DNA from: Thiotrichaceae bacterium
Lineage (GTDB): Bacteria; Pseudomonadota; Gammaproteobacteria; Beggiatoales; Beggiatoaceae
Reading direction: 5' to 3'
Length of the DNA stretch: 64,000 nt
Assembly: GCA_028688145.1 (NCBI GenBank)
Contig: JAQTYU010000002.1
Coordinates: 372,001-436,000, forward strand
In this document: piece after piece, positions 508-55,570 of the stretch
Numbering within the stretch: position 1 is the first letter of the stretch
How the letters are laid out: each line of letters opens with the position of its first letter
Notes under the pieces: model-generated
Seen by the model: the letters and a program-made list of their open reading frames with translations, nothing else
Databases searched by the model: none
Told to the model about the DNA's origin: nothing
Program-made: the position numbers and the translations under genes

Positions 508-3500
508 ATGGAAACTGAACAACGGGCAGGTGAGTTGCCACTTGCGACACTCCCCTATGCAAGCCTATGCTTTGTCAATTTTCAGGGTAAATTACTTGAA
601 AAAACACCTAGTTGCGCCCCTTTTCTCGGATTAAGCACAGGCGATTTAAGTAAAATTATTTTTGCCGAAGATTGGGAGATTTTTTCTCAACAATTACAAG
701 CCATCACCCAAGCTGCCGCAGGCTACAGCACACAATTTGAAATCCGTTGTTGCAACCAACAAGGGAATTTCGCGATGCTGTTATGGCAGGCAACCCGTAC
801 CACCACGGGATTTTATGCGCAATTAACCGATATCAGTGCATATTCGCATCCAATCCATAACAATCTCAGGGGTTTTAACGAGGAAAACCATTATCATGAA
901 TTATTGTTTGAGCAAAATCTCTTGGGTATATTTCGCTCCACGCCAGAGGGTCAAGTCCTTAAAGTGAACAATGCCTTAGCCATGATTTATGGCTACGAGT
1001 CAGTCGGAGAATTTCAAGCGGAAGTCGTCAGCATTCAACGCCAGCTTTATGTATATCCTGAACAACGGCGGCATATTTTAGAAACTATGCGAAATTCCAA
1101 TGGAATAATGCAGCTTTTTGAAGTTGAGCATTATCACCGCTCAGGAAGAATTATCTTTATTAATATGTATTTACGTGCTTATCTCGATACTCAGCATAAT
1201 ATTCAATATTTGGAAGGTATTCTACAAGATATTAGTGATTATAAACATTTAGAAACTGAATTACGCCACAGTGAGGCAAATTATCGTTTATTGGCAGAAC
1301 ATTCCACCGATATGATTTCACGCCACACTTTACAAGGCATTTATCGTTATGTCTCGCCCGCGTGCTCCTATTTATTGGGTTATGCGCCGTCAGAATTAAT
1401 AGATCGCAGTGTTTATCAATTAGTCCACGCCGATGATCTCGCACAAGTCACCGCTGCTTATCGTCCTCAACCCGAAAACAGTCGCCTGACTTTCACCTAT
1501 CGAATGCGTCATAAAAATGGCGCGTACTTGTGGTTTGAGACCACTAACCGCATTTTACCTGCCGATTTTTCATCCAGCTTGCCCGAAGTGCTCTCCGTTT
1601 CCCGCGAAATCAGTCAACGCAAACGCATCGAGCAAGAAAGCCACGCCGCCCATGAACGCCTATTGCGGGTGCTCGACAGTTTAGACGCGCTGGTGTATGT
1701 GGCTGATTTGGAAAGCTATGAAATTTTATATGTGAATAAATATGGGCGCGATGCCTTTGGGGAAATCGTCGGTGAAGTATGCTGGAAAGTGTTTTGGAAG
1801 GATGGCACAGCACCTTGTTACAACGCAAAACATCCGCTACGCAAGTTTTGCAATCAATTACGCGCTCATGCTGAAATGAAGGCATCTACCTCTCAAGTCC
1901 ATGAGTCTTTTAATAATATTACACAAAAGTGGTATTCGATTCATTCACGCGCCATTTACTGGGTCGATCAACGCTTAGTGCGTCTTGAAATTGCCTATGA
2001 CATCACCGCCCGCAAACAACAAGAACGCGCCTTAAAGCAAAGCCAAGAACGTTATAGTCTCGCCACCCACGCGGGAAAAACAGGGGTGTGGGATTGGAAT
2101 ATTAGCACCCAATATTTTTATATCGACGGCAGCATTAAACAATTACTCGGTTATAAAGAAAACGAATTGCAAGATAATTTAAGCACTTGGTTATCTTTGG
2201 TGCATCCCGACGATGTCGATTTCCTCAAACAAGCGTTTAAACAATATTTATCAGGTAACAGTGCGGCGTATCAAGTCGAACACCGGATGATTCACCGCGA
2301 TGGGCAGGTGTTGTGGATGTTGGAGCGCGGCGAAGCCCTGCAAGATGCGGCGGGTAAGGCCTATCGTGTGATTGGCACCAGCAGCGATATTACCGAGCAC
2401 AAACTCAGCAAGCAACAACTGCAACGACAAGAACAATTCCTGCGTAAAATCGCCCAAATCACCCATTTACTGCTCACCGTTCCCAGTTATGACCAAGCGA
2501 TTACCCAAGCCTTAGATGCTTTGGGTAGTTCATTAGAAGTAGACCGCGCTTATCTCATCGAAAATGAATACTTGCCCAAACAACAAGATGTACTGATGTT
2601 TCAACGCTGTGCGTGGATTAAAGCCTCGCAAACTTCGGATAATCCACGGCATTTTCACCAACTGAGTTATGTGCATCATTTGCCCGAATGGTATCAAAAA
2701 TTACTGGAAAATCAATCTGTTTTAGTCAATATTCACGCAGAAAATTCAGAGTTTATTCAGTTATTTTTAGAGCAACAACAAATCAGCAGCTTATTAATCA
2801 TCCCTATTCATTTTAAAGGGCATTTTTGGGGCTGCATTATTTTAGAAATGGCAGAGCAGCAGCGCGAATGGACGACCCATGAAATTTTCAGTTTGGGCTT
2901 GGTGGGCGACAGTATGCGCGGGGCTTTGTTGCGCCAACAAATTAAAAATTCCTTACAACGCAGTGAAGCCAAATTCCGCACCATCATTGAAAACAATCAC
3001 GACGCAATTTTAATTATTGATCCCAATGATTTAATCTGTTTTGCCAATCCTGCGGCAGAACAATTGTATCAAGTCGCCAATGATGAATTAACAGGCACAC
3101 ACTGCCCGTTTGCTCATGCCGAAAATGCCCATCAAGAACAAGCAGTGATTGACCGTGAAGGCGAACTGCATATTTGTGAAATGCAGTTGACAGAATTAAT
3201 CTGGGAAAATTTAAGCGTCACTATGGTGACTTTGCGGGATATTACCGCCCGTAAACAAGCCGAGGACGCGCTGCGCCAAAGCGAACAACGCCTACAAACC
3301 CTCACCAATAATTTGCCGATTGTATTATTTGCCTTGGACAGTGACGGGGTGTTCACCGTGTTACGCGGCAAAGGTTTAGAAGCCCTGGGTTTGAGTGAAG
3401 AAAGTCTGTTGGGCAAATCGATTTTTGAACAATATCGGCATTTTCCAGATGTCATTGAAAACACACGGCGCGCACTGCAAGGCGAAACTTTTAGTTGCAC

Positions 3501-5613
3501 CATCAGTTTTAACAAAGGGCGGCTGATTTTAGAAATTCAATATTCGCCCTTGTTAAACCAAGCAGGCAAATTGATCGGCACCTTGGTGCTGGCGACCAAT
3601 ATCACTGAACGTAAGCGTGTCGAAATTGAACTGCATCGCGCCAAAGAAGCCGCAGAAATTGCCAACCGTTCTAAGAGCGAATTTCTCGCCGCAATGAGCC
3701 ACGAAATTCGTACGCCGATGAATGGGGTGATTGGGGTGACGCAATTGCTCACGCAAACTGAACTTTCCCCACAACAAGCGCATTATGTGGAAATGATTCA
3801 CACATCGGGCGAAACCTTGCTCACCGTCATCAACGATATTTTAGATTTTTCCAAAATCGAAGCGGGCAAACTGGTTTTAGATAATATTGAATTTGATTTA
3901 CGCGCCCTGTTTGAAGACGTGATTAGCTTTTTTGCCCCCGCCGCGCAACGCAAAGGCTTGAATATTATCTGCGATTTACCCCCGCAATTACCGCAGCGCA
4001 TGTGCGGCGATGTGAATCGCTTGCGCCAGATTTTAAATAATTTAATCGGCAATGCGGTGAAGTTTACCCAGCGTGGCGAAGTGTGTTTAGAAGTCACTGT
4101 TGCGGAAGAACGCGAAACCCAAATCGGTTTTGCTATCGCGGTCAGCGACACGGGGATTGGTATTAGTGCGCAATTACGCGCGAATTTATTCAAACCCTTT
4201 TCTCAAGCCAGTTCAGAAATTAGTCGGCAATATGGCGGCACGGGGCTGGGTTTGGTGATTTCAAAACGTCTCATTGAAATGATGGGCGGTAATATTGGCG
4301 TGCACAGTGTTCCTAATCAGGGCAGCACCTTCTGGCTAAAATTGCCCTTGGATAAAACCGATACCGCGCCATTTTGTAGCCTGCCTTCCACGAGTTTACT
4401 GCACGGAATGCGAGCGTTAATTATCGACAGCTATCCCAAAAACACCGCGATTTTGAAGCGAGAATTACAAGCTTGGGAGATGCCCGTCAGTGTGCTGGAT
4501 CGGGCAGAGGCAGTGCACGCGCTGTTACAGCAGGTCAATTTTATGCCCGAACAACAAGCTGACGTGATTTTATTAGACAGCCATGTTCCCCGATTAAATT
4601 ACACCCAAGTGCTGCAACAATTTAACAGTCATCCGTGGTTGCGTAGTGTTCCAATCATCATGCTGACTTCTTTACAGCAATATGTGGACGCGCCCCAATT
4701 AGAATGTGTCACCAGTTATCTTAATAAACCGATTCGACAAAGCGAGTTGCGCCACGCCTTATTGCAAGTACGTCACCCAGTGTCGAGCGCAGCCTCGCCG
4801 CAACGCTTACAAAAAGCAATCTTTGCCAAACTTGGAGATTTTCAGATTTTATTAGTTGAAGATAATTTGATTAATCAAGAAATTGCGCGCGATATGTTGC
4901 TGCAATTGGGTTGCATGGTATTTATTGCTAAAGATGGACTAGAAGCGGTTCATGCGGTGCAAAATGCCCATTTTGACCTGATTTTGATGGATTGCCACAT
5001 GCCCAATTTGGATGGTTTTGCCGCCAGTCAACAGATTCGCCAATTTGAAACCAAACATCAGCGTGTTCCTGTGCCGATTGTCGCATTGACTGCCAATGCG
5101 ATGCAGGGTGATAAAGAACGTTGCTTATCCGCAGGAATGAATGATTTTGTCACCAAGCCGATTATTTTGGCAAAGTTGCGTCCTGTGTTAGAACGCTGGT
5201 TACGCCCCGAACAAGCGCATTATCAGCCTTCACCCGCCACGGTGACACCTGAGACAGAGAGTGGAGAAGTTTTAGATAAAAGCTTATTAGCAAATTTACG
5301 TGCGGATAGCCAAATGGGGAGCATTAATTGGTTAATCGATTTGTATTTGCAAGAGTTACCGAATTATCTTGAAAGTCTACAGCAGGCAGGCAGATCAGGC
5401 GATACGCGCAACTTATATTTACAAGCGCATAAACTGAAAGGGGCAAGTGCCAATCTGGGTGCGAAGCGTTTGGTGGTGTATTGCAGGAGTTTGGAAGATG
5501 TGGCACAACAAAGCAAGCTCGAACCGATTGAAGGCTTGATGCAACGCATTATGAAAGAAGCGGAGCTATTGAAAAAACTATTACTGTTGGAAAAACAGCA
5601 GGAGAGAAAGTAG
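508..5613 (+). CDS. Giant multi-PAS/GAF hybrid histidine kinase with two receivers and HPt
   Basis: This is a 1701-residue phosphorelay sensor. Approximate order: a weak PAS-like segment (12-115), PAS domains near 126-245, 255-375, 383-505 and 512-630, a GAF domain (641-810), and two more PAS domains (818-915, 925-1040). A HisKA domain (1045-1115) has the phospho-accepting His1065 in an SHEIRTPMNG motif. A HATPase domain (about 1160-1280) follows, with N box NLIGNAVKF and G boxes DTGIGIS and GGTGLGL. Then come a first receiver (about 1300-1420, Asp1357), a canonical second receiver (about 1445-1570, Asp1495, Lys in FVTKP) and an HPt domain with His1641 in AHKLKG. The first receiver is degenerate: it has a single acidic residue near its start (LIIDSYP), where the second receiver has LLVEDN. 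No membrane segment is visible, so the protein should be cytosolic. No output regulator lies next to it. The two convergent genes downstream encode secreted binding-protein-like proteins that could supply a signal (inference). Confidence 0.97.
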   Translation: METEQRAGELPLATLPYASLCFVNFQGKLLEKTPSCAPFLGLSTGDLSKIIFAEDWEIFSQQLQAITQAAAGYSTQFEIRCCNQQGNFAMLLWQATRTTTGFYAQLTDISAYSHPIHNNLRGFNEENHYHELLFEQNLLGIFRSTPEGQVLKVNNALAMIYGYESVGEFQAEVVSIQRQLYVYPEQRRHILETMRNSNGIMQLFEVEHYHRSGRIIFINMYLRAYLDTQHNIQYLEGILQDISDYKHLETELRHSEANYRLLAEHSTDMISRHTLQGIYRYVSPACSYLLGYAPSELIDRSVYQLVHADDLAQVTAAYRPQPENSRLTFTYRMRHKNGAYLWFETTNRILPADFSSSLPEVLSVSREISQRKRIEQESHAAHERLLRVLDSLDALVYVADLESYEILYVNKYGRDAFGEIVGEVCWKVFWKDGTAPCYNAKHPLRKFCNQLRAHAEMKASTSQVHESFNNITQKWYSIHSRAIYWVDQRLVRLEIAYDITARKQQERALKQSQERYSLATHAGKTGVWDWNISTQYFYIDGSIKQLLGYKENELQDNLSTWLSLVHPDDVDFLKQAFKQYLSGNSAAYQVEHRMIHRDGQVLWMLERGEALQDAAGKAYRVIGTSSDITEHKLSKQQLQRQEQFLRKIAQITHLLLTVPSYDQAITQALDALGSSLEVDRAYLIENEYLPKQQDVLMFQRCAWIKASQTSDNPRHFHQLSYVHHLPEWYQKLLENQSVLVNIHAENSEFIQLFLEQQQISSLLIIPIHFKGHFWGCIILEMAEQQREWTTHEIFSLGLVGDSMRGALLRQQIKNSLQRSEAKFRTIIENNHDAILIIDPNDLICFANPAAEQLYQVANDELTGTHCPFAHAENAHQEQAVIDREGELHICEMQLTELIWENLSVTMVTLRDITARKQAEDALRQSEQRLQTLTNNLPIVLFALDSDGVFTVLRGKGLEALGLSEESLLGKSIFEQYRHFPDVIENTRRALQGETFSCTISFNKGRLILEIQYSPLLNQAGKLIGTLVLATNITERKRVEIELHRAKEAAEIANRSKSEFLAAMSHEIRTPMNGVIGVTQLLTQTELSPQQAHYVEMIHTSGETLLTVINDILDFSKIEAGKLVLDNIEFDLRALFEDVISFFAPAAQRKGLNIICDLPPQLPQRMCGDVNRLRQILNNLIGNAVKFTQRGEVCLEVTVAEERETQIGFAIAVSDTGIGISAQLRANLFKPFSQASSEISRQYGGTGLGLVISKRLIEMMGGNIGVHSVPNQGSTFWLKLPLDKTDTAPFCSLPSTSLLHGMRALIIDSYPKNTAILKRELQAWEMPVSVLDRAEAVHALLQQVNFMPEQQADVILLDSHVPRLNYTQVLQQFNSHPWLRSVPIIMLTSLQQYVDAPQLECVTSYLNKPIRQSELRHALLQVRHPVSSAASPQRLQKAIFAKLGDFQILLVEDNLINQEIARDMLLQLGCMVFIAKDGLEAVHAVQNAHFDLILMDCHMPNLDGFAASQQIRQFETKHQRVPVPIVALTANAMQGDKERCLSAGMNDFVTKPIILAKLRPVLERWLRPEQAHYQPSPATVTPETESGEVLDKSLLANLRADSQMGSINWLIDLYLQELPNYLESLQQAGRSGDTRNLYLQAHKLKGASANLGAKRLVVYCRSLEDVAQQSKLEPIEGLMQRIMKEAELLKKLLLLEKQQERK

Positions 5614-23731: not shown

Positions 23732-25495
23732 TCACGGAATCCCAAAGCCTTGTTTAATTTTCGCGAGGACTTCAGCATGATTTTTTGTTAAATCTGCTAA
23801 AGACCAAGTCGAATACTGACTGTAAATTCTTATTGAATTACTGAACAACTCTACATTACCTTTAAAGTATTTGTCTTTCTTATCCGCATAATCTTGATTC
23901 CCTTGTGCAGAGTTTTTGCGTCTTGAAATTAATACCAAGTTGCCGAGTTTATCTGTCCATTCCTCTCTCTGACTTTTGTCAAAATCAATCTTCCATTGAC
24001 TACCATCACGTGGAGTTTGTGGCAAGATGTGTTCAATACTGATTGTTTCATCAGTTGGATTAAACTTTGTGGTATGTCCATGATACAGTAAGTCAAGTTT
24101 AAGCAGAATATATCTAGCCCTTGTTGGTTTGCCGTAAATATTACCCTCAAGTTTAGCTAACAGCGCTTTACTCTCAAGAGACAGGCAAGTGCTTTGCAAA
24201 ACATCGTTTGGAGTTTTTGCATCATCAATTACTTGAATTATCGCGTTTACCTGCTCAATTCTCTTGGCTAGCGTGTACTCTAGTAACCAATCATGAGCGA
24301 ACTTATTATCCAATGCTTTTACAAAGTCGATAAGCTTATCTGTTTTGAATCTGTCGTAGAACCTTAGTAGAGGCGCAACCCAAAAATCAGCTTCAAAACC
24401 TTTCTTCATAAGATACAGATAATTATGAAGCTCATACTTATCACGCTCGAAATTCTTCATTACTTCATACGCATTATCGAACAGGTCTTCGTAATGTTTC
24501 TTGTATTTATTGATAAAATCGAACGTTTTCTCCCCTTTACTTAAAAGTGGCTGGGAATAAGTTCTTGTTTTAGTAGATAAATCGTAGCTTGTTGGGCGAT
24601 AGATATTATCTGCAAATTCTTTTAACAGACTGGCAGAAGCTTTTCGTTTTACTAAAATGGTTCTCAGGTGTGAAAGAAAAATGTCAAAAGCTTCTCCAAA
24701 ATAATTTTCGGCAGTTTCCCATTTCTCTGCATATTCAAGTCGTTTTGCGTCATCTTGGATCATTCCAAGATTGTCAGCTTTGAGAATATCACTACTTCTG
24801 AGTTTGACACCCCTGTTATTCATCACAGTAAAAAGTCTAAATGCGTCTTCAAGTCCTTCTGCGGAAACGTAAATCATTAGAACATTTAAGCGCAAGTAAA
24901 GAAAAAACTCCGAAATACTGCTAGTTTCATCAAAATAATCCCTAATGGTCAAAATTGCTTTTGCCATATTGCGAATGGAAATATCTTCTTTATTATTTGC
25001 AACTTTATGTTGCAATTCATCTTTTTTTGTTGTGCCACCATATTGTTTCACAAAACTGTCTATAAAATCTTTTACTTCTCTTCGTATGTCAAAAACAATT
25101 CTCAATCTTTCTGGTACACTACTGAATTTATCTTGTTTTTGGAATATGGCTTTTTCGCAGGCTTCTTTTAAATCGTTATCATCAGACATATCTCTGATAA
25201 CAGCTGTAATAAGAAATAACGTTATCAAACGTTGCTGTCCATCAAGTACATCATATTCTTCGTATTTAGTATCCCTTTCTTCTTTTGAGTTTTTTCTCAA
25301 TACCATAGATCCCAAAAAGTATTGAGAAGCGGAACTATTAGTTCTTGCTTGTGTAATATCATCAAGTAATTCCATTATTTGTTCCTTATCCCACACATAA
25401 GGTCTTTGGTATTCAGGAATACTAAACCATTTTGAAAATAAATCTTTCACAAGAAGTTTGTCACATTCAATTTGTTGAGCCATGTTTTTCATCAT
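23732..25495 (-). CDS. DUF262-DUF1524 protein, GmrSD-like type IV restriction enzyme
   Basis: This 587-residue protein has an N-terminal DUF262 domain with IPEYQRPYVW (26-35) and DVLDGQQRL containing the DGQQR nucleotide-binding/hydrolysis motif (85-89). Its C-terminal DUF1524 HNH-type nuclease domain has SIEHILPQTP (His489) and LGNLVLISRRKNSAQGN. Fused GmrS-GmrD-like proteins are type IV restriction enzymes that cleave phage DNA with modified bases, as do BrxU-type relatives. No methylase or other defence gene is beside it, as expected for a stand-alone type IV enzyme. The gene is more AT-rich than its neighbours and is bordered by inverted repeats, suggesting acquisition. The ATG at 25495 and one at 25480 are both possible starts. 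Confidence 0.9.
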   Translation of the reverse strand: MMKNMAQQIECDKLLVKDLFSKWFSIPEYQRPYVWDKEQIMELLDDITQARTNSSASQYFLGSMVLRKNSKEERDTKYEEYDVLDGQQRLITLFLITAVIRDMSDDNDLKEACEKAIFQKQDKFSSVPERLRIVFDIRREVKDFIDSFVKQYGGTTKKDELQHKVANNKEDISIRNMAKAILTIRDYFDETSSISEFFLYLRLNVLMIYVSAEGLEDAFRLFTVMNNRGVKLRSSDILKADNLGMIQDDAKRLEYAEKWETAENYFGEAFDIFLSHLRTILVKRKASASLLKEFADNIYRPTSYDLSTKTRTYSQPLLSKGEKTFDFINKYKKHYEDLFDNAYEVMKNFERDKYELHNYLYLMKKGFEADFWVAPLLRFYDRFKTDKLIDFVKALDNKFAHDWLLEYTLAKRIEQVNAIIQVIDDAKTPNDVLQSTCLSLESKALLAKLEGNIYGKPTRARYILLKLDLLYHGHTTKFNPTDETISIEHILPQTPRDGSQWKIDFDKSQREEWTDKLGNLVLISRRKNSAQGNQDYADKKDKYFKGNVELFSNSIRIYSQYSTWSLADLTKNHAEVLAKIKQGFGIP

Positions 25496-45924: not shown

Positions 45925-47640
45925 ATGCGGCTACAAACCAAGTTACTGTTAACTATTGGTGTTGTGTTGCTGTTGGTGTTTACGGCGGTTGAATACAGCA
46001 GTTATCAAGACGCACAACACAATGCTGTACAAGATTTACAAGGGCAGGCTGAAAAAGTCCGCGCGGTGTTGATGGCATTCCGACGTTATCAACAGCAAGT
46101 AATTTTGAAATATAAAATTGAAATGGATGACGTTCATTTAAATTTTTTGCCTGCTTTTGCCGTGGGTAAAATTTCTCAAGAATATCCGAATTGGGATAAC
46201 TCGGGATTCAGTTTTGAAAACGTCTCCGATCAACCTCGCAATCCAGAACATGCCGCTGATACAATTGAATTAGAAGCAATGGCGTATTTTCGCGAACATC
46301 CCAAGGATCAGATTTTATTCAAACCTTTTAATAATCCCCAAAAAAATGGTGAAGAATATTATTTATATGCACGCCCCGTGTGGACGGAGAAATATTGCCT
46401 CGCCTGTCATGGCAAGCGCGAAGATGCCCCCAAATTGATTCGTGAAAAATATGACACCGCATGGAATTACAAAGAAGGTGATTTACGCGGTTTACTCAGT
46501 ATCAAACTGCCTGCAACAACGATTAAGGCGCGGGCATGGGAAACATTTAAAAAAGGTGCGCTACTGCATTTTGCGGGATTTACTTGTATATTTTTTGCGG
46601 TATTAGTGATTATTCGGCGCACAGTCACTCATCCCATGAGCCAATTGGAGCAGGGAATGCAGGCGGTTGCTGTGGGTAATTACACACATCGCTTGCAAGG
46701 TTTTGAGGGCGAGTTTGAAAAAATCAGCGAAGGTTTTAACAATATGTCGCTGAAGGTGAATCAGCAACAACACGCTTTGCAAAATCTGAATGAAAACTTA
46801 GAACAACGGGTTTTATTGCGCACCTCGGAACTTGCGGCAGCGCATGAAAAAATCCGTCGTTTGAACGAAGGCTTACAAAACGAAAATATACGGATGGCAG
46901 CAGAGTTAGAAATTAGTCGTCAATTACAACAATTGCTGTTACCCAAACCGCAGCAACTCGCAGCGATAACAGAATTAGACATTGCAGGTTTTATGGAAGC
47001 TGCCACCGAAGTTGGCGGGGATTATTACGATATTTTGCCGCACGCAGGACATATTAAACTGTGCATTGGTGATGTCGTGGGACACGGTTTAGAAAGTGGC
47101 GTAGTGATGTTGATGGTGCAAATGGCAGTACTGACTTTATTGGAAAATGAAGTCACTCATCCTGAAACTTTCTTAAACATCATCAACCGCGCCATTTTTG
47201 CCAACTTGCAACGTATGAATTCTGACAAAACCCTGACTTTAAGTCTTTTGGATTATCATCAAGGTCGTTTGCAAGTGACGGGGCAACATGAAGAAGTTTT
47301 AGTAGTACGTCAAGATGGCAGCGTAGAACGGATTGATACCATTAATTTAGGCTTTATTGTGGGTCTGAAAGCCGACATCAGCGCATTTTCAAAACATCTG
47401 GAACTTCAATTGGCGGTCGGTGATGGGATTGTGTTGTATACCGATGGTATTACCGAGGCACACAATGCGCAGGATGAAATGTATGGCATTGAACGTTTAT
47501 GCCAACAAATCAGCACGCATTGGCAAGCGGGAAATGCTGAATATATTCAGCAAGCCGTAATTCAAGAGTTACGGCAATATCTGGGCACGCAAGCCCTTGA
47601 AGATGATATAACTTTAGTTGTGGTAAAGCGCGTAATTTAG
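45925..47640 (+). CDS. SpoIIE-type phosphatase with DUF3365 haem-site sensor and HAMP
   Basis: The 571-residue protein has a membrane helix (about 7-24), a periplasmic DUF3365/Tll0287-like domain (about 30-210) with a CLACH motif (Cys158, Cys161, His162), a second helix (213-232), HAMP (233-285), a coiled coil and a SpoIIE/PP2C domain (about 340-570). GGDYYD, IGDVVGHG and LYTDGITEAHN supply the metal-binding Asp residues. Such phosphatases dephosphorylate STAS antagonists; the CxxCH motif suggests covalent haem c and redox or gas sensing (inference). It heads a four-gene run: the GHKL-like gene starts 12 nt later, then STAS and a histidine kinase. Confidence 0.94.
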   Translation: MRLQTKLLLTIGVVLLLVFTAVEYSSYQDAQHNAVQDLQGQAEKVRAVLMAFRRYQQQVILKYKIEMDDVHLNFLPAFAVGKISQEYPNWDNSGFSFENVSDQPRNPEHAADTIELEAMAYFREHPKDQILFKPFNNPQKNGEEYYLYARPVWTEKYCLACHGKREDAPKLIREKYDTAWNYKEGDLRGLLSIKLPATTIKARAWETFKKGALLHFAGFTCIFFAVLVIIRRTVTHPMSQLEQGMQAVAVGNYTHRLQGFEGEFEKISEGFNNMSLKVNQQQHALQNLNENLEQRVLLRTSELAAAHEKIRRLNEGLQNENIRMAAELEISRQLQQLLLPKPQQLAAITELDIAGFMEAATEVGGDYYDILPHAGHIKLCIGDVVGHGLESGVVMLMVQMAVLTLLENEVTHPETFLNIINRAIFANLQRMNSDKTLTLSLLDYHQGRLQVTGQHEEVLVVRQDGSVERIDTINLGFIVGLKADISAFSKHLELQLAVGDGIVLYTDGITEAHNAQDEMYGIERLCQQISTHWQAGNAEYIQQAVIQELRQYLGTQALEDDITLVVVKRVI

Positions 47641-47651
47641 GAGGAGGCGGT

Positions 47652-48257
47652 ATGGGTAGCGTAGTCTATGGCAATTTTCACGACAAGAAACAGCCTGAAA
47701 ATGAAGAGTATTTGTCGCTTCAATTTTCCCCAAGTCGTTTGCCTTTAAAAAAGCGATGGGAAAATAATGGCTTATCCGCTGATTTTATCTCGGAATATTT
47801 TAAGATTTTCTACATTAGCTCCGAAGAAGAACCTGAAGAGGCGAATATTAAAGAAGTAGTATTAGAGAATATCCGTAATAGCGTGAAATATGTCGCTAAT
47901 GAACTGCTTGAAAATGCGATGAAATTCCAAGCCCCCACTGAATATCCCACCGTGGCACAAATTTTCTTATCACTGTATGAAAAACGCTTAGTGTTTTACA
48001 TTACCCACAGCATTACACTCGAACAATCTACGCTATTCCAGCAGTTTATTGAACAACTGCTTGCAAACGACCCGAAATTACTTTATTTCGAGGCGATGCG
48101 CGACAGTGCTCGCGAAGAAAATGCACAGCGTTCAGGGATAGGTTTGTTAAGCATGATATGCGATTATGAGGCTCAACTCGGCTGGAAATTTGAAACTCTC
48201 CAAGATTCACCGCTGATTAGCGTGACTGCTATGGTGACTTTAGGTACTGGTGTTTAA
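47652..48257 (+). CDS. GHKL-like regulator (slr1658-type), probable STAS partner kinase
   Basis: This 201-residue protein has a possible ATP-binding N box (VANELLENAMKFQ) and a short G-box-like RSGIGLLSM, the pattern of degenerate GHKL/anti-sigma kinases. Its length and position between a SpoIIE phosphatase and a STAS protein resemble cyanobacterial slr1658-type regulators. It may phosphorylate or bind the STAS protein encoded next. A strong GGAGGAGG site precedes the ATG. Kinase activity is inferred from context, since the HATPase motifs are weak. Confidence 0.78.
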   Translation: MGSVVYGNFHDKKQPENEEYLSLQFSPSRLPLKKRWENNGLSADFISEYFKIFYISSEEEPEEANIKEVVLENIRNSVKYVANELLENAMKFQAPTEYPTVAQIFLSLYEKRLVFYITHSITLEQSTLFQQFIEQLLANDPKLLYFEAMRDSAREENAQRSGIGLLSMICDYEAQLGWKFETLQDSPLISVTAMVTLGTGV

Positions 48258-48265
48258 TAGGGAAA

Positions 48266-48631
48266 ATGAACATGTTCGAACTTCACGATAATAAATATAA
48301 AATTGTGTACGATCCCGCAACTGCCAGTGTGATCTGTGAGGGTTCATTATTACTCAATGGTGCGCCTGCCTATGAGCCGATTTTGCAATTATTAAAACAA
48401 GCGGCGGAAACCCAAGAACCGAATAAACTCACGGTCAATATCTGCGCATTGAAATTCATGAACAGCTCAGGAATTAATATGCTCACCAAGTTTGTGATGT
48501 ATGTGAGCGATATAAAACAGCTCAAACTGACACTGGTGTTTCAAGCGCAACAACAAATTGCTTGGCAAGATAAATTATGTATTAATTTACAACGTCTATT
48601 ACCCACGCTACAAGTGCATCTGCTGAATTAA
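48266..48631 (+). CDS. STAS-domain anti-sigma-antagonist-like protein (slr1659-type)
   Basis: This 121-residue STAS-fold protein has the motif ALKFMNSSGINMLTKFVMY. Ser67/Ser68 sit where antagonists such as SpoIIAA are phosphorylated. It is expected to be the switch of the module: phosphorylated by the GHKL-like protein and dephosphorylated by the SpoIIE protein. It starts 8 nt after the previous gene; ATG at 48266 and ATG at 48272 are equivalent choices. No sigma or anti-sigma factor is in the run, so the final target is unknown. Confidence 0.85.
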   Translation: MNMFELHDNKYKIVYDPATASVICEGSLLLNGAPAYEPILQLLKQAAETQEPNKLTVNICALKFMNSSGINMLTKFVMYVSDIKQLKLTLVFQAQQQIAWQDKLCINLQRLLPTLQVHLLN

Positions 48632-48652
48632 CAAGGACTGGGCAAGTGCGTT

Positions 48653-49612
48653 ATGGAAAATCACGAAATTACTTCATTGTACGAACGCCTCCAAGAACTT
48701 GAAAAAGAAAACTTGCAATTACGCATTGCTTTGGACGCAGTCACAGAACATTCCGATTTAATGGAAGCGCAACTGTTAGAAGTTCAAGAAAATCTCGAAC
48801 TGAAAGTACAACAACGTACTTGCGAACTGGCAGAGAAAAATGCGGAGCTATATCAGGCAAAAGATGCCGCAGAACAAGCCCGTATTGCCGCAGAAATGGC
48901 GAATCGAGCAAAGACTGCGTTTTTGACCAATATGAGTCATGAATTACGCACGCCCTTAAATGCCGTGATTGGCTATGGTGAGATTTTAATTGAAGAAATG
49001 CATGATAATAATTTCCCCCACTGGGCGCGAGATATGGAAAAAATTCTGGCTGCCGCGCTGCATTTATTGAGTTTAATTAATGATGTTTTAGATATTTCTA
49101 AAGTGGAGGCGGGGAAAGTCAGTGTGCATTTAGAACGTTTTAATATTGAAAGCTTGATCAAAGAAATTACCTTAATTGTTCAACCCTTGATTCAACAAAA
49201 GCACAATACTTTACAATTACAAATTGCCGAACAACTTGGGGAAGTGTATACCGACTCCACCAAAGTGCGACAAATTCTATTTAATCTGTTGAGCAATGCT
49301 GCCAAATTTAGTGAATATGGGGAAATTCGTCTCATTGTTCGCGAAGAAAATACAGCCGATGGCAATCATTGGATGGTTTTTAGCGTGATTGATCAGGGGA
49401 TTGGTATGAGTCCCGAACAAGTAAAACGTTTGTTTCAGCCATTTATGCAGGCAGATAGTTCGACCACGCGCAAATTTGGGGGCACGGGTTTGGGTTTAGC
49501 CATTAGTAAATCTTTTTCGGAAATGTTGGGTGGGCGTATTGCTATCAGCAGCGAATTGAACAAAGGCAGTACTTTCACCGTGTTTTTGCCACGGATTGCC
49601 CCAAAAAAATAG
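48653..49612 (+). CDS. Cytosolic histidine kinase of the partner-switching operon
   Basis: The 319-residue kinase has an N-terminal coiled coil (about 1-85), HisKA with His96 in MSHELRTPLNAVIGYGEIL and a HATPase domain (NLLSNAAKFS, DQGIGMS, GGTGLGLAIS). It has no sensor domain and no membrane segment, so input probably comes through the coiled coil from another protein. It follows the STAS gene by 21 nt, linking two-component and partner-switching signalling in one transcript. No response regulator is adjacent. Confidence 0.93.
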   Translation: MENHEITSLYERLQELEKENLQLRIALDAVTEHSDLMEAQLLEVQENLELKVQQRTCELAEKNAELYQAKDAAEQARIAAEMANRAKTAFLTNMSHELRTPLNAVIGYGEILIEEMHDNNFPHWARDMEKILAAALHLLSLINDVLDISKVEAGKVSVHLERFNIESLIKEITLIVQPLIQQKHNTLQLQIAEQLGEVYTDSTKVRQILFNLLSNAAKFSEYGEIRLIVREENTADGNHWMVFSVIDQGIGMSPEQVKRLFQPFMQADSSTTRKFGGTGLGLAISKSFSEMLGGRIAISSELNKGSTFTVFLPRIAPKK

Positions 49613-55483: not shown

Positions 55484-55570
55484 GCCGGGGTGGCGGAACT
55501 GGTAGACGCGCCAGACTCAAAATTTGGTGGTGGTGACACCGTGTCGGTTCGATTCCGACCCTCGGTACCA
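55484..55570 (+). tRNA. tRNA-Leu (anticodon CAA)
   Basis: This 87-nt sequence has class II structure. Acceptor strand GCCGGGG pairs with CCTCGGT (two G-U pairs). The D-arm is GGCGGAACTGGTAGACGC, the anticodon loop contains CTCAAAA with anticodon CAA, a long variable arm follows, and the T-loop is GGTTCGATTCC. The 3' end ACCA is encoded. Confidence 0.95.

Follow-up and report, generated by a model that had tools for sequence, protein, structure and literature searches.

A probable partner-switching relay that ends in a histidine kinase, encoded by a conserved four-gene operon of a Thiotrichaceae bacterium

The 64,000-nucleotide stretch of Thiotrichaceae bacterium DNA analysed here (contig JAQTYU010000002.1, positions 372,001 to 436,000; the window) carries on its + strand four closely spaced open reading frames (ORFs), which encode a membrane SpoIIE/PP2C phosphatase, a GHKL protein of the slr1658 superfamily, a STAS protein of the slr1659 superfamily and a histidine kinase. 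We conclude, with a probability of about two in three, that this operon is a partner-switching relay of the SiaABC/BgrUWV type, in which the unphosphorylated slr1659 protein docks on the N-terminal stalk of the histidine kinase, the output. The course that we infer would be the following. A periplasmic haem-Cache domain, predicted to bind haem and probably reading nitric oxide (NO), would control the cytoplasmic PP2C domain by way of HAMP and a coiled coil. Ser67 of the slr1659 protein would receive a phosphate from the slr1658 protein, and the SpoIIE phosphatase would take it off again. The unphosphorylated slr1659 protein would dock on the helical motif at the kinase N-terminus, and the docking may alter the geometry of the kinase dimer and thereby its activity, in the manner of SiaC on the stalk of SiaD. 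A sequence-only reading of the region had already suggested a path from a haem sensor via STAS phosphorylation to the kinase, which is supported by the protein families, their conserved linkage and the likeness to SiaABC/BgrUWV.

The ORF listing of the window places the four genes at 45925-47640, 47652-48257, 48266-48631 and 48653-49612 with gaps of 11, 8 and 21 nucleotides, so the tight run described earlier stands, although its first gap had been given as 12. The first gene (45925..47640, +) encodes a 571-residue protein, in which Pfam detected a Tll0287-like/DUF3365 domain (PF11845, residues 32-196, 110.6 bits against a cut-off of 24.1), a HAMP domain (residues 230-277) and a PP2C domain (residues 375-569; SpoIIE, 122 bits). 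The PP2C acidic motifs GGDYYD, GDVVGHG, GDG and DDIT are intact, and the translation contains the haem-c attachment motif CLACH at residues 158-162 (46396..46410, +), as the sequence-only reading had it. DUF3365/Tll0287 domains are described as haem-c Cache domains in a 2026 preprint (PMC12889525), according to which stand-alone members have Cys/His ligation and are apparently redox-related, while a protein with transmembrane segments and HAMP that lacks this Cys binds NO tightly; proteins of the latter kind without the axial Cys were proposed as NO sensors. The window protein shares PF11845 with CXXCH, transmembrane segments and HAMP with these sensors and, like the signalling class of Tll0287/sCache_heme, has no axial Cys; it differs in that its domain is fused to a SpoIIE phosphatase within a complete partner-switch operon.

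The only cysteines of the sensor domain are Cys158 and Cys161 of the CxxCH, and the four orthologues likewise have only the two of this motif there; Cys221 of the window protein falls in the second membrane helix region. A stand-alone Tll0287 homologue of the same genome (L256, G000:C31:321142-321573) has an extra Cys well before its CxxCH, like the redox class. Because the window sensor has no Cys besides CLACH, it is assigned by its sequence to the class that binds NO and not to the redox class, and this difference between the five proteins and the stand-alone homologue makes NO probably the most likely signal; of the "redox or gas" signal suggested earlier, the gas part is thus favoured over the redox part. 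A sensor that reads redox, oxygen or another ligand, with the relay otherwise as proposed, is a serious though less favoured alternative: a single signalling-type member of the family was tested, in a preprint (PMC12889525), and the window domain was assigned by sequence, but both the proposed NO-sensing role of proteins without the axial Cys and the distribution of cysteines just described speak against it.

The second gene (47652..48257, +; 201 amino acids) belongs to the slr1658 superfamily according to NCBIfam (NF047703, 195 bits against a cut-off of 100), and also passes the cyanobacterial equivalog NF052618 (204.5 bits against 200). The third (48266..48631, +; 121 amino acids) belongs to the slr1659 superfamily (NF047705, 118 bits against 100), and the two genes lie adjacent, 8 nucleotides apart, as expected for a regulator pair of these superfamilies; the likeness to slr1658/slr1659 noticed earlier is therefore membership by curated cut-offs. 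The slr1658 protein is a predicted STAS kinase similar to SiaB and BgrW. It had been called degenerate, which is not simply so, as its N-box NELLENAMKF, common to most relatives, is kept and the homologue BgrW was reported as a working Ser/Thr kinase (PMC7647112). Its AlphaFold2 (AF2) model, of low confidence (mean predicted local distance difference test, pLDDT, 61) and used for the fold class only, matches SpoIIAB/RsbW-type kinases. The slr1659 protein, a predicted phospho-switch, has the phosphosite Asn66-Ser67-Ser68, where the serines had been correctly placed before: Asn66 and Ser67 are kept in 60 of 60 relatives and Ser68 in 57. Ser67 is most likely the phospho-acceptor, judged from this invariance and from the motif F-M-N-S-S-G, which lines up with Y-L-N-T-S-S around SiaC Thr68. 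Conservation among the 60 relatives is highest in the alpha-2 and alpha-3 segments. The AF2 model (pLDDT 76) has the SiaC topology; its top Foldseek matches (7e6g, 6k4f, 6kkp and 6kko) are SiaC chains with TM scores of 0.54-0.67 and no E-value below 0.001, the best solved match being SiaC in 7e6g, the SiaC-SiaD complex.

The fourth gene (48653..49612, +; 319 amino acids) encodes an orthodox histidine kinase with HisKA (residues 86-154, 60 bits) and HATPase_c (residues 201-314, 103 bits) domains in Pfam, whose H, N, D and G boxes are intact in six orthologues. It has no receiver. It had been described as sensorless, but its N-terminus bears a conserved motif that is probably a docking site for the STAS protein. 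This motif was first seen on reading the N-termini of genes 3′ of slr1659. It is a helical segment of about 30 residues with the consensus xxEKxDLEISLETITEHADxxExQLL, represented in the window kinase by residues 17-46 (EKENLQLRIALDAVTEHSDLMEAQLLEVQE; 48701..48790, +). Orthologues were aligned three, five and six at a time, and a model of the motif built from six short-kinase orthologues detected it as a single copy in the genome of origin (G000:C3:420701-420790, E 2.9e-13). Comparison of the kinase N-terminus with solved structures matched only chance coiled coils. Either Thr15/Asp19 or Ala18/Asp19 of the motif may face the STAS serine.

About 75 slr1658 copies were fetched with their neighbourhoods from relatives and mapped. 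Four related genomes (L092, the same as L004; L094, the same as L005; L087 and L097) have all four genes, haem sensor included, in the order of the window, from the sensor-phosphatase to the kinase, so that the linkage is conserved. Elsewhere the slr1658-slr1659 core is constant, while the preceding sensor and the following output vary: for instance, the SpoIIE protein at L093, L089, L081 and L075 lacks the haem domain, and the outputs at L056 and L059 are GGDEF proteins. A sub-lineage (L053, L073, L047 and L080) has duplicated slr1658-slr1659 pairs without the stalk motif and in a different wiring, adjoining either very long SpoIIE-kinase fusions or a receiver protein plus a kinase. In the cyanobacterium Kovacikia (L212:7265-10550), a gene that reads in translation as a SulP-like transporter and an ORF with a STAS-like N-terminus come after the slr1658-slr1659 pair. 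A search of the genome of origin with NF038262 gave no match.

At the fetched loci, a search of the ORFs found the stalk motif in about 40 proteins with kinase, GGDEF or PAS outputs, all encoded near slr1658/slr1659; the weakest matches, with E near 1, look like chance. When the domains of 55 stalk proteins were scanned, HisKA was present in 41, a receiver in 23, GGDEF in 14 and EAL in 9, the outputs being histidine kinases, hybrid kinases, GGDEF and GGDEF-EAL proteins. Tandem motifs, often 32-39 residues apart, occur in 18 of the 55, and one protein has five. A GGDEF protein with five tandem motifs is encoded by the ORF at 5476-7782 of L052, where part of the N-terminus is masked as N. The genome search recovered slr1658 in 30-32 of 58 relatives and the motif in 22, every one of them slr1658-positive (22/30 positive against 0/28 negative genomes, Fisher p 1e-9; inside the family 22/29 against 0/8, p 2e-4). 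Twenty motif regions distant from any slr1658 gene were also fetched, and their stalks precede hybrid kinases, GGDEF and GGDEF-EAL-type proteins with no slr1658 nearby; at two of them (L176 and L179) a slr1659 gene lies just upstream. In G002, a single contig, the sole phosphatase-slr1658-slr1659 cluster has no adjoining output and two stalk proteins are encoded elsewhere. In a sample of 399 genomes of the phylum, slr1658 exceeded the cut-off in seven, whereas only two had the motif at E<0.001: the genome of the window itself and G312, which belongs to another family. The G312 locus encodes, in this order, a 272-residue GGDEF protein with two stalk motifs (a SiaD-like cyclase), slr1658, slr1659, a periplasmic-binding-like protein and a SpoIIE protein; three family-mates of G312 have neither slr1658 nor the motif. 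The matches in G484 and G495 (E 0.004-0.006) were discarded as noise, about four chance matches being expected at E<=0.01 in 399 genomes.

A close parallel to this arrangement is SiaABCD of Pseudomonas aeruginosa, where the phosphorylation state of Thr68 in SiaC is governed by SiaA and SiaB. When unphosphorylated, SiaC attaches through alpha-2 (including T68) and alpha-3 to two sites on the SiaD stalk, 32 residues apart, and activates SiaD (PMC8457831). Both systems combine in one operon a HAMP-PP2C membrane phosphatase, a GHKL kinase, a phosphoprotein of STAS fold whose site reads Asn-Ser/Thr-Ser, and an output enzyme that begins with a helical stalk. They differ in that the output of the window operon is a histidine kinase, its sensor is haem-Cache and its stalk motif is unrelated in sequence; SiaD, unlike the window kinase, is a diguanylate cyclase that binds SiaC through tandem [IV]SDx[YF]Q motifs. 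Docking of slr1659 on the TEHxD stalk is proposed because the STAS model resembles SiaC and the most conserved segments, alpha-2 and alpha-3, are those with which SiaC grips SiaD. The stalks are parallel in arrangement, being N-terminal, helical and often tandem with a spacing of 32-39 residues. Homology of the motif to the SiaD stalk was considered and rejected, since in profile comparisons it scored no better against the SiaC-binding motif than a null set of unrelated diguanylate cyclase linkers; thus, the link to SiaD is one of analogy. On this analogy, the best reading of the motif is a portable socket for dephosphorylated slr1659.

A second parallel is BgrRSTUWV of Sinorhizobium meliloti. 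The pSymB locus is unannotated in the record, and we take it to be bgr from the gene order R-S-T-U-W-V. Its BgrW and BgrV pass the slr1658 and slr1659 cut-offs and share with the window the order phosphatase, kinase, STAS; BgrU and BgrW are reported to govern, as a pair, how BgrV is phosphorylated, and to control the diguanylate cyclase BgrR (PMC7647112). Unlike in the window, this output has no stalk motif and is encoded upstream, and there are extra GHKL-like and STAS-methyltransferase genes. Two upstream genes (L214:2332-4064) are weak relatives of slr1658 and slr1659, the second fused to a methyltransferase domain. Slr1658/Slr1659 of Synechocystis belong to the same superfamilies, but have no known stalk-bearing kinase; a mutant in slr1658 does not recover normally from iron limitation. 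As in RsbT/RsbU switching, a partner protein would act on an N-terminal coiled-coil linker, but in that system the partner, RsbT, is kinase-like and the RsbU N-domain serves as the socket, whereas here a STAS protein would act on a short helical motif. Coiled-coil linkers were proposed as an exchangeable toolkit among phosphatases, diguanylate cyclases and histidine kinases, with regard to RsbT and other modules, not STAS (PMC12143880).

Several observations weigh against the proposed relay and docking. The similarities of slr1659 to SiaC and of slr1658 to SiaB are below curated cut-offs, the window proteins scoring 71 of 700 for SiaA, 20 of 85 for the SiaB family and 22.2 of 24.5 bits for SiaC (PF09345), and the slr1659-SiaC profile comparison is weak (E 0.0018, probability 15); the stalk motif has no detectable sequence similarity to that of SiaD. 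The rhizobial operons (S. meliloti pSymB and Aminobacter) contain the phosphatase, slr1658 and slr1659 but no stalk motif, and seven slr1658-positive genomes of the family (G012, G017, G023, G025, G028, G030 and G032) also lack it; therefore, the motif is not the only output route. The co-occurrence of motif and slr1658 within one family is phylogenetically correlated, and the motif may instead be a coiled coil that serves dimerisation.

The last point leads to an unlikely but not negligible explanation, according to which the stalk is a mere dimerisation or signalling helix, the kinase is only co-transcribed, and slr1659 acts on an unlinked sigma/anti-sigma system or another enzyme. The motif resembles a coiled coil and is found in front of dimeric enzymes, and slr1658/slr1659 occur without it in rhizobia, Kovacikia and some family members. 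However, the same motif stands before unrelated catalytic domains, and its confident matches were confined to slr1658-carrying genomes among those searched; this tracking disfavours a generic coiled coil, which should not follow one partner. It is far less probable that the kinase is an input feeding phosphate or binding into the GHKL/STAS switch, the target of which would lie elsewhere, even though histidine kinases can act upstream of partner switches and the operon provides no receiver partner: the membrane phosphatase already bears a sensor, and cyclases and phosphodiesterases, which are outputs, carry the same motif. Moreover, where such systems have been characterised, with SiaC and BgrV, it is the STAS protein that acts on the enzyme (PMC8457831, PMC7647112).

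The surroundings of the operon do not suggest an output. ArgS-like and SPOR-like genes lie on its 5′ side and genes of a TPR protein and TldD/PmbA-like proteins on its 3′ side (all names except TPR read from translations). As had been stated earlier, none of the neighbouring ORFs was recognised as a sigma or anti-sigma factor; the linked sigma factor typical of the RsbUVW/SpoIIAB switch is missing from them, although an unlinked one may exist. Promoter and terminator scans gave matches at chance level. Farther away, the window encodes a 1701-residue hybrid histidine kinase with many PAS domains, a GAF domain, two receivers and an Hpt domain (508-5613), a GmrSD-family restriction endonuclease (type IV, DNA modification-dependent; 23732-25495) and a tRNA-Leu(CAA) (55484-55570), the sole Rfam match of the window.

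The SiaABC/BgrUWV-like switch is a known type, and what would be new is the histidine kinase as output; a literature search, which was not exhaustive, found no STAS-controlled histidine kinase of such kind and no such plug-and-socket system. Beyond this operon, the evidence is evenly poised on a broader, undescribed addressable wiring, in which a helical socket, single or in tandem (up to five), is shuffled before enzymes as different as histidine and hybrid kinases, cyclases and GGDEF-EAL proteins. STAS proteins with a phospho-switch could then control many enzymes at once, in cis and in trans. The part likely to surprise specialists is that the motif follows slr1659 across unrelated enzymes. 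If true, such a system would merge Ser/Thr partner switching with two-component and cyclic di-GMP signalling, and would explain how target choice works in partner switches without sigma factors: the socket can be recognised by its sequence, so that outputs could be predicted from the genome sequence alone. The outputs of the widespread slr1658/slr1659 pair, in Synechocystis as well as for BgrW/BgrV in Sinorhizobium, would become searchable and testable, and in sulfur bacteria a probable NO-sensing haem domain would be tied to two-component and cyclic di-GMP signalling.

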